A stretch of 34,204 nt of DNA from Saprospiraceae bacterium (lineage in GTDB: Bacteria; Bacteroidota; Bacteroidia; Chitinophagales; Saprospiraceae), in the NCBI GenBank assembly GCA_026983735.1, contig JALSTN010000279.1, positions 1 to 34,204 of the forward strand. The letters run 5' to 3'. Below, in pieces: positions 18,951-24,186 of the stretch. Within the stretch, counting starts at the first letter, position 1. Each line of letters starts with the position of its first letter. The notes under the pieces were generated by a model. The model made no database searches, was not told the origin of the DNA, and was given only the letters and a program-made list of their open reading frames with translations. Both the position numbers and the translations under genes were made by a program.

Positions 18951-20792
18951 TTAGTTTAAATTGATATCGATGTTCATTTTAAATACCCTTCCGGGAAGCA
19001 ACCATCCACGAATAATTTGATAGCTCTGATCGGTCAAATTATCAACAGCGACACCTATCACTGCATTGACCTTGGGCCTATAAACAGTATAGGATAGTCC
19101 TATATTGAATAAGTGATAATTCGGCAACCAAATCTCATTATCTGCTGTCACAAAACTCTTCCCGGACCAATGATGTTCTAAGTCCAATTTCCATTTGGGG
19201 CTCATCAGCCAGTCTACACGACTTGTACCTTGATGAAGTGGGACATATATCAACTGTTTTCCCAAGACATTATCATTGGGAAGTCTATTGGAGGTATATG
19301 TTGTCTTCGCAAATCCATAGTGAATAGTCCAAACCAACTGTTCTACCATTTCATACTTCCAATCCAGATCGATCCCCCGACTCCATACGGATGGAATATT
19401 CACTACAGAGAAAATACCGTTTTGAGGAATCCACTGTATATAGTCCAACATTCTCCTATGAAAGAGTGACCATTGAACGGTATTGGTTCCAAATGGAGTC
19501 CATTTCCATCGCATATCGGCACCCCATCCTTTTTCTGGCAATAGATCAGGTCGACCTCCAGGTGCCCAATACAAGTCATTAAAAGAAGGAATTCTCCCGT
19601 ATTTTCCCGTACTAAAGATTAGCTTCAACTGTGGTGATAAAGCACGATGTAAGGAGAACAAGAAAGTCACTAATTGCCTATTCCTTTCCGTAGAAAACTG
19701 GTTTCTAAAGGAAAACTTTAGATCCATTTTGTGTGTAGTCGCGCCAAATTCAGAGGATAGAATAAGGTCATTCGCTAGAATCTTCTGATTAAAACCTGTG
19801 GATTCTGCTTGAAAAGTGCGCCCTTGGACCTTTGCTATCCAATATCTTGCTCCGGACGTATATCTGTAGCTAAAATTGGAAATCCCTAACCAGGTTTTAC
19901 CTTTGAAATCAATATGAGCAGATGGACTTACATAAAAAGTCGAAAGGTTTGAGCTACTTAATCCAAAGGAGCATTGGGCATGTTTCTTTTCATAGCTCAA
20001 TTTACTTGAAAATAAGCTTCTTGTGTTCGTTAAATGTGCATCACTAAATTGTTGGAATAATCTAGGCGGAATATTTTTGTCATCATTTGTCAAAAGAAAA
20101 GAGGTCTCTATTCTCCAAAATTTTCTCAACAATTTCTGGATGCCTGCCCCATAGCCATAAAAACTGCGATTGCCATGCTCTAAAAGCTTTGATTGCCCAT
20201 TTTCTTCATAGGGGAAATTATTTTGATGGATGAGAGCGCCGCCAAAAGCAGAGAAAGCTGTACGACCATTGGAATAGGAGATTGATCCCTGACCGGATCT
20301 CAATCCATACTGCCCCCCCAAACCATTAATCCTGGAAGTCCACCCGGAAGAGTCTAATGTCGGCATCGAACTGAAACGCAATTGTCCACCGGGAAGACCA
20401 TCGAGCGAATTAACCGTGGAAAAAGTTAAGGAATTGCCCATCATAGACAAAAACATACCCGAAGCATCCATTTGACCGGTTAGCGGATCATTTATTAAGA
20501 TATCGTTCCAATATACCCCTGTAGAAGCTCCGGGAAGACCATGCCAGGTAAGTGTTGACAATTGACCGGCTCCATATTTTAGCAAATTGATGCCCATACG
20601 ATTGATATAATTTAGATTCGGGTCTATTGCTGGGCTGGGAGGGAGATGGAGGACTATTTCAAACGGGTTGGTCATCGTAATGGAGGAACCCATCACGAGC
20701 GCTTCTGGAAGGGAATACTCCAATGTATCTGTCTTTTGGCCAAATAATTGACCAGTGAATAAAGATAAATACAGCAACACCTTCCATTTCAT
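18951..20792 (-). CDS. TonB-dependent outer-membrane receptor, probable corrinoid transporter (BtuB-like)
   Basis: Signal peptide, plug-like N-terminus, beta-barrel repeats, C-terminal NLTDQSYQIIRGWLLPGRVFKMNIDINLN; downstream of a cobalamin riboswitch. Confidence 0.8.
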   Translation of the reverse strand: MKWKVLLYLSLFTGQLFGQKTDTLEYSLPEALVMGSSITMTNPFEIVLHLPPSPAIDPNLNYINRMGINLLKYGAGQLSTLTWHGLPGASTGVYWNDILINDPLTGQMDASGMFLSMMGNSLTFSTVNSLDGLPGGQLRFSSMPTLDSSGWTSRINGLGGQYGLRSGQGSISYSNGRTAFSAFGGALIHQNNFPYEENGQSKLLEHGNRSFYGYGAGIQKLLRKFWRIETSFLLTNDDKNIPPRLFQQFSDAHLTNTRSLFSSKLSYEKKHAQCSFGLSSSNLSTFYVSPSAHIDFKGKTWLGISNFSYRYTSGARYWIAKVQGRTFQAESTGFNQKILANDLILSSEFGATTHKMDLKFSFRNQFSTERNRQLVTFLFSLHRALSPQLKLIFSTGKYGRIPSFNDLYWAPGGRPDLLPEKGWGADMRWKWTPFGTNTVQWSLFHRRMLDYIQWIPQNGIFSVVNIPSVWSRGIDLDWKYEMVEQLVWTIHYGFAKTTYTSNRLPNDNVLGKQLIYVPLHQGTSRVDWLMSPKWKLDLEHHWSGKSFVTADNEIWLPNYHLFNIGLSYTVYRPKVNAVIGVAVDNLTDQSYQIIRGWLLPGRVFKMNIDINLN

Positions 20793-20934
20793 ATCTTTAA
20801 AAATTTCTAATAAATTGAAAATAAATGTATTATAAATTTTCTGCAGCTATGGAACCGCTGCGCTCTCACATGAATTTTTTTAAACATACTTCTGTGTGAA
20901 ATTTATGTTTAATAAAATTCATGTTCGTTTCATA
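20787..20934 (-). repeat. 148-bp TATGAAA-bounded repeat, copy 1
   Basis: About 4 mismatches and a 1-nt T-run length difference relative to 24038-24186. Right boundary (minus strand) forms the ATGAAA start of the TonB receptor gene. Confidence 0.92.
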
Positions 20935-20939
20935 ACTAC

Positions 20940-20970
20940 GTCTTTTTCCTAAATAAGGATACAAAAAGAC
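20940..20970. repeat. Inverted repeat GTCTTTTT...AAAAAGAC with inner CCT/AGG
   Basis: gtctttttcctaaataaggatacaaaaagac, between riboswitch and repeat copy 1. Confidence 0.5.
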
Positions 20971-21110
20971 TTCAATTGCTAAGGGAAGGAAAAGAAAGGG
21001 AAGGAAAAATCAAGATGACTCTGACATTCACTGCTATACAGAGACCGTCGGCAAACAATTTCTCACTTCACCTGCTTTTAATCCCGAAAGCAAATCGAAG
21101 TACATCATAT

Positions 21111-21292
21111 TATTGGCAGGTCTTCTGACTCATCATTTCATACAGCCTTCCCAATGTGTAGTACATCAGTGGCGACATGTATCCCTTTAACAAGGGTTGA
21201 TTCACAGCTGCGGGTACAGTATCCGGATTGCACGGATTTCCCTATTCTCTTCCCTACATTCGGGAAGATCTACTCTATAGAGTACCAAAATA
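21111..21292 (-). ncRNA. Cobalamin (B12) riboswitch
   Basis: Minus strand contains GGGAAATCCGTGCAATCCGGATACTGTACCCGCAGCTGTGA, CGCCACTGATG and the B12-box-like GAGTCAGAAGACCTGCC; possible closing P1 TATTTTGGTA/TGCCAATA. Confidence 0.92.
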
Positions 21293-21372
21293 TGTTACAA
21301 AGATACAATTAAATTGGGGATAAATAGCAGATATATCTGACTAAAAAATGAGGATAGGGACACCGTGCCAAG

Positions 21373-23554: not shown

Positions 23555-24043
23555 CTACTTATCAAATTCAACAACTTGCATGTTAAGTACTTTGTAATCT
23601 ATTATATCAAACTGTACCATGGTACGAACCGTATGAAATCCGGACTTACCAGCCGCACCTGGATTTATATGTAGCAAGTCATGAATGCGATCCGGCATGA
23701 TTTTTAGAATATGAGAATGACCACTTAAAAAGATGTTGGGTTGGTGTTGGAGAATAAGTTCTTTCGCACGGCTGGTGTATCTTCCTGGATACCCGCCAAT
23801 GTGCAACATAACAATTCTCAATCCTTCGATATCAAAAACTAGAAATTCAGGAGCATACCCTCGAATATCTCTACCGTCAATATTGCCGTAAACTACTCGA
23901 AGCTCTCCGATATCCCTTAATTGAGAAAGCACGTCAAGGCTACCAACATCTCCTATATGCCATATCTCTTGACAACATCTGAGGGTTTCCAACATATCAT
24001 TTCCTATATACCCATGTGTATCGGACAGAACTCCTATTTTCAT
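23555..24043 (-). CDS. YfcE/MJ0936-type metallophosphoesterase
   Basis: MKIGVLSDTHGYIG, HIGDVGSLDVL, VYGNIDGRDI, LSGHSHILK, INPGAAG. Confidence 0.9.
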   Translation of the reverse strand: MKIGVLSDTHGYIGNDMLETLRCCQEIWHIGDVGSLDVLSQLRDIGELRVVYGNIDGRDIRGYAPEFLVFDIEGLRIVMLHIGGYPGRYTSRAKELILQHQPNIFLSGHSHILKIMPDRIHDLLHINPGAAGKSGFHTVRTMVQFDIIDYKVLNMQVVEFDK

Positions 24044-24186
24044 ATCTTTAAAATTTTCTAATAAATTGATAATAAATGTATTATAAAATTTCTGCAGCTA
24101 TGTAACCGCTGCGCTCTCACATGAATTTTTTTTAAACATACTTCTGTGTGAAATTTATGTTTAATAAAATTCATGTTCGTTTCATA
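24038..24186 (-). repeat. 149-bp TATGAAA-bounded repeat, copy 2
   Basis: About 97% identical to copy 1; right boundary (minus strand) forms the ATGAAA start of the phosphoesterase gene. Confidence 0.92.

Follow-up and report, generated by a model that had tools for sequence, protein, structure and literature searches.

The riboswitch-receptor locus

The window, a stretch of 34,204 nucleotides from a contig of a Saprospiraceae bacterium, carries on its minus strand a cobalamin riboswitch followed by a gene for a BtuB-like TonB-dependent receptor. The riboswitch aptamer (RF00174, 21288-21098; cmscan, 90.4 bits, E 2.4e-21) is matched over the full length of the model (positions 1-189; gathering score 31.5) and is the sole Rfam RNA match in the window. 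The receptor is encoded by an open reading frame of 613 amino acids (18951..20792, ATG at 20792); its best PDB matches are the BtuB/TonB receptors 8p98, 8blw and 8bmx, and it has weak NCBIfam matches to the TonB receptor models TIGR01779 and TIGR01783. DUF4465, secreted and DUF5074 genes lie downstream, and a sister species of the same genus (G001) has this four-gene series, too, after the same riboswitch.

A putative Bacteroidetes -7 promoter motif of the TAnnTTTG type (TATCTTTG, 21298..21305, minus strand), found by motif scan, lies just 5' of the riboswitch, and G001 has its equivalent, TACCTTTG, at the matching place. On the 3' side of the aptamer, comparison of the two sequences indicates a probable P13-like hairpin (GCTTTCGGGATTAAAAGC, 21074..21091, minus strand), which in G001 reads GCCTTCGGGATTAAAGGC, with a compensating change. 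The GGATT of its loop complements an AATCC in the aptamer, so that a loop-aptamer pairing is possible; the predicted ligand-free fold does not favour the hairpin. The original leader (20935..21073, minus strand) continues from there to the old start site, and is similar in length to the element-free leader of G001 (about 180 nt in G001 versus 164 nt here, counted to the upstream ATGAAA with the inserted element removed).

A preliminary description of this locus had noted a repeat of about 148 nt between the riboswitch and the receptor gene, and a repeat is found at 20934-20787. The leader length that it gave, about 320 nt, is close to the 305 nt separating the end of the aptamer model from the receptor ATG, its coordinates and lengths being good to about 15 nt. 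That the repeat is an insertion is upheld by the btuB locus of G001, where riboswitch, receptor and downstream genes are present and the element is absent. Its placement between riboswitch and receptor needs amending, as the last six bases of the repeat, ATGAAA (20787..20792, minus strand), are codons 1 and 2 of the receptor and form its current start (open reading frame 20792-18951).

Without double counting, this first copy of the element occupies 141 nt (20793..20933, minus strand), as defined by the other copies in the genome and a match of 131.9 bits to covariance model R1; it becomes a 148-nt repeat when TATGAAA is counted at both ends. The left ATGAAA (20928..20933) is presumed, by the empty-site logic of G285 and its sister species described below, to be the original start codon, and now opens a four-codon reading frame, ATGAAACGAACATGA (MKRT*, 20933-20919). 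Between the two ATGAAA sequences, all on the minus strand, are a hairpin supported by covariation (H1, 20868..20924) and a second hairpin (H2, 20790..20851) in which helices 2 and 3 covary. H2 begins with a guide-like segment, CATAGC (20846..20851; CATNNG in the family), which covaries with the 3' end of the element, and its 3' foot, GATATG (20795-20790; CNNATG in the family), includes the receptor start codon. A second copy in the window (24038..24186, minus strand) precedes a metallophosphoesterase gene and contains the gene's start codon (24043) at its end. The two copies (20934-20787 and 24186-24038) are 95-100% identical.

Copies in this genome and in relatives

The genome assembly (G000; 3.3 Mb, 314 contigs) contains the repeat in 114 places by a 28-mer pattern and in at least 128 by a looser pattern, the reversed control pattern giving no hits. 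This is far above chance, and the copy counts here and below are lower bounds because the searches score top candidates only. Identity to the window copy is about 90-98% for most full-length copies, whose flanks are unrelated. Where copies are neighbours, they share the terminal TATGAAA, which gives tandem arrays with a period of about 141, and many copies lie away from genes. Contigs C135, C231, C242, C259 and C271 end in or beside a copy, and the repeat therefore probably fragments the assembly, the true copy number being probably underestimated.

A longer version of about 300 nt carries an imperfect inverted repeat of about 170 nt in the H1 loop (L153, L155, L156, L162, L164, L170, L174, L177, L036). 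This insert occurs in many internally deleted forms, always attached to the left end of the element. We considered that it might be a transposase remnant and rejected the idea, as it is an imperfect inverted repeat without a long shared open reading frame.

Beyond this genome, at least 17 others of the order Saprospirales have diverged versions of the element. Related elements were found, with two mismatches allowed, in 13 further genomes among 398 of the family, and the covariance model added G443, which belongs to another family, as well as G109, G255, G122 and one degenerate copy in G001. Lineage-specific versions reach at least 26 copies in G285, 18 in G062 and 10 in G443. The element occurs in named records of a Saprospiraceae MAG and an uncultured Lewinella MAG; phages, plasmids and viral contigs yielded no copies. 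Rfam gave only chance-level matches to the element, and nothing on a bacterial repeat that inserts at start codons turned up in the literature searched; the hairpin element is previously unlisted. Some relatives have extra G+C-rich hairpins (e.g. CCGCCTTAGGCGG) within the element, at a small number of recurring positions (L108 and L110-L113 in G062; L249, L251, L253 and L255 in G443), and a second element type, with GGGAGTTCCTGAAT replacing AGCGGTTnCATNNG, likewise ends at start codons (L234 in G255, L235 in G001).

Insertion at start codons and conserved structure

The trp operon of G285 has elements at the trpG/trpD and trpF/trpB junctions, and three species of the same genus are without both. 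The empty site of G178, ATATGAAAGCG (..AAAATATGAAAGCG..), has the trpG stop TGA overlapping the trpD ATG. In the filled site of G285, GTATGAAACGA..AACATATGAAAGCC (..GCTGTATGAAACGAGC, then the element, then AACATATGAAAGCC..), the trpG stop and the trpD start are both kept. The trpF/trpB site shows the same arrangement. Empty sites have a single ATGAA and filled sites have ATGAA at both ends; the empty sites settle the point of insertion as an ATGAA start codon which is duplicated. A start codon may be a safe landing place, since duplication of ATGAA restores the start and even an upstream stop that overlaps it. The element lengthens the leader of a gene without breaking the gene, since it inserts exactly at the start codon and restores it. 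In some copies the upstream ATG has decayed (TGGAAACGA, TCCAAACAA) and the downstream ATG is retained.

Of 52 copies inspected in other species, 47 finish precisely on the start codon of an open reading frame. Among ATGAA sites at loci free of the element, 52 of 87 (about 60%) are start codons, so that the excess is significant (p 9e-5); both counts are rough, the former hand-filtered and the latter dependent on a crude open reading frame caller. Only 30 of 87 copies in the present genome are at start codons, which is under the background rate, and the recent burst in this genome was therefore not start-specific.

Structural conservation was examined in an alignment of 37 elements with 44 base pairs over H1 and H2. 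The pairs are formed in 88% of cells, versus 79% after shuffling and at most 51% when the partners are slid, and the covariation score (0.264 versus 0.112 shuffled) was reached in none of 500 shuffles. Changes on both sides are seen in 27 of the 44 pairs, and in 16 of 24 pairs in H1. G-T pairs outnumber A-C (85 versus 25), and the folded strand is therefore the gene-sense one, whether as RNA or as single-stranded DNA. Pairing between the internal CATNNG and the terminal CNNATG is present in 97 of 111 variable cells (72.7 shuffled; 0 of 20000 permutations), through at least seven combinations (AT/AT, AC/GT, GA/TC, CT/AG, GT/AC, AG/CT, TT/AA), and the ATG of CNNATG serves as the downstream gene's start codon.

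The same covariation would also be expected from a role at the RNA level. The element might be mainly a cis-acting regulatory RNA in which H2 hides the start codon and whose copies are kept for translation control of a thermosensor-like or ligand-controlled kind. The sense-strand structure agrees with this, as do the covariation that keeps the start codon paired, the predicted opening of the start codon, near zero in several relatives where it is buried in H2, and the excess of copies at start codons in other species. However, the prediction for the window variant is a mostly open start codon, copies in this genome occur in tandem and away from genes, there is no Rfam match, and the orthologous trp genes of sister species are without the element. 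The downstream genes are also unrelated (asd, proC, acs, sdhB, rmlC, pepP-like, cytochrome oxidase, trpB, trpD and metF-like), which led us to reject the idea of a regulon, and we consider a primarily regulatory RNA unlikely. The four-codon upstream reading frame was also rejected as a conserved feature; some copies have lost its stop, which makes it a probable by-product of the H1 stem.

Proposed mobility of the element and B12 control of the receptor

What the sequences show is the number of copies, their structure, the point of insertion, the empty sites of sister species and, in other species, the association with start codons. On balance we read the repeat as a mobile element of a new, non-autonomous kind: some 141 nt long, it would insert at ATGAA(A), typically at start codons, and it has a guide anatomy like that of the IS200/IS605 family. 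It would enter ATGAA(A) and leave ATGAA at both ends, through which the downstream gene would keep its start codon and reading frame. By analogy, the element would move as a folded single strand, its ends and target recognised through base pairing as in IS200/IS605, with an enzyme supplied in trans. At the present locus, the start codon that it entered would be that of a BtuB-like receptor under riboswitch control.

IS608 has a fixed short target at its left, with that sequence again at the right end, hairpins on a single strand and an internal guide that pairs with the right-end cleavage site (PMC5934647). Like IS608 and ISDra2, the element has short hairpin-bearing ends and strand-specific structure, and it inserts beside a fixed target, as these do beside 4-5 nt that are kept at the left flank, here with ATGAA at both ends. 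The covariation of CATNNG with CNNATG appears to correspond to the pairing of the internal guide with the right-end cleavage site. Unlike IS200/IS605 members, the element has a target of ATGAA with a preference for gene starts, its only supported guide lies between two hairpins with a pairing site that holds the start codon, and no Y1 transposase was found with it. A left-end guide has no covariation support; GTTnCAT could pair with ATGAAAC, and the guide changes in G285 are unmatched at the left end. Our comparison suggests an element that works like IS200/IS605 rather than one that is a member.

None of the copies examined has a transposase gene inside or next to it, and the element was not found in the flanks of 17 Y1 loci, the Y1 genes of this and related genomes lying away from it. 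G162 carries the element and has no Y1 match. The only Y1 gene of the present genome, a RAYT-like transposase gene of 153 amino acids (contig C313, L122:1-2117), lies inside an array of another palindromic repeat (agctccgtaggagc / cgtcccgaagggac), to which it belongs. A RAYT/Y1 gene as carrier of the element was rejected, as the two are not adjacent in any genome tested.

This RAYT-like gene bears on whether the element is a REP/REPIN-type repeat moved by a RAYT (TnpA-REP) transposase, with which its high copy number, hairpins and occasional tandem arrays are consistent. As in REP, REPIN and BIME systems, many dispersed hairpin repeats are present per genome and were probably moved in trans. 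However, the RAYT-like gene sits among the different repeat, the element is 140 nt and not 20-40, its layout and start-codon insertion differ, and in place of a conserved GTAG tag at the hairpin foot, GTAG occurs in 9 of 37 copies at scattered places. A REP-type origin is improbable in our judgement. Another explanation is a DDE-type MITE or a site-specific recombinase element, for which ATGAA would be a target duplication of the usual kind or an overlap region. Duplication of the target would give the same ATGAA at both ends, the direct ATGAA(A) repeat and the site preference fit either type, and the 300-nt version has a large inverted repeat inside H1. Miniature size, high copy number and lack of genes are shared with MITEs, but the ends of the element, AAACGAnCATG and TTTTAAACNNATGAA, are not inverted copies of each other, and the element has an asymmetric two-hairpin layout with strand-specific G-T pairs and no terminal inverted repeats. 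We assign this explanation a small probability.

The single-strand reading has a more far-reaching form, which we put forward tentatively as the less probable one, in which the element represents an undescribed class whose internal base-pairing guide directs insertion at start codons, with possible translation control via the same pairing. If it is true, a mobile element with a built-in landing at gene starts would leave genes unbroken and swap 5' leaders genome-wide, providing natural experiments in which riboswitch-controlled and operon genes gain a new translation start region, and the covarying guide would make the targeting mechanism directly testable.

The preliminary description had suggested that the repeat, should it carry a promoter or refold the leader, could alter or uncouple the B12 control of the receptor. 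The position between riboswitch and gene and a TATAAT in AT-rich DNA speak for this, but neither window copy contains TAnnTTTG (found in 2 of 37 family members) or a sigma-70-like site, and the promoter-like motif lies upstream of the riboswitch both here and in G001. Refolding of the leader fares no better, since the repeat folds on itself and pairing within the riboswitch is predicted to change by only about 1%. We regard this explanation as very improbable.

The aptamer is a normal member of the RF00174 riboswitches found upstream of btuB, and what differs is the receptor start, displaced by the inserted element. Transcription control has been reported for many Gram-negative cobalamin riboswitches (PMC12121620). 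A scan found no terminator between riboswitch and repeat. Transcriptional control by the riboswitch should, on our model, survive the insertion; a single transcript from upstream of the riboswitch would be made, and the receptor would be translated from the element-borne start region. Translational control may have been weakened or uncoupled by the element, because the receptor start has moved 141 nt downstream and the old start is left with the four-codon MKRT* frame only. Predictions give the new start region a more open structure than the old.

The variant CATAGCTGCAG, found at window positions 20860-20842 and in most copies in this genome, could fold into a small competing hairpin (GCAGC..GCTGC), releasing the start codon; this may explain the tolerance of a high copy number in this genome.
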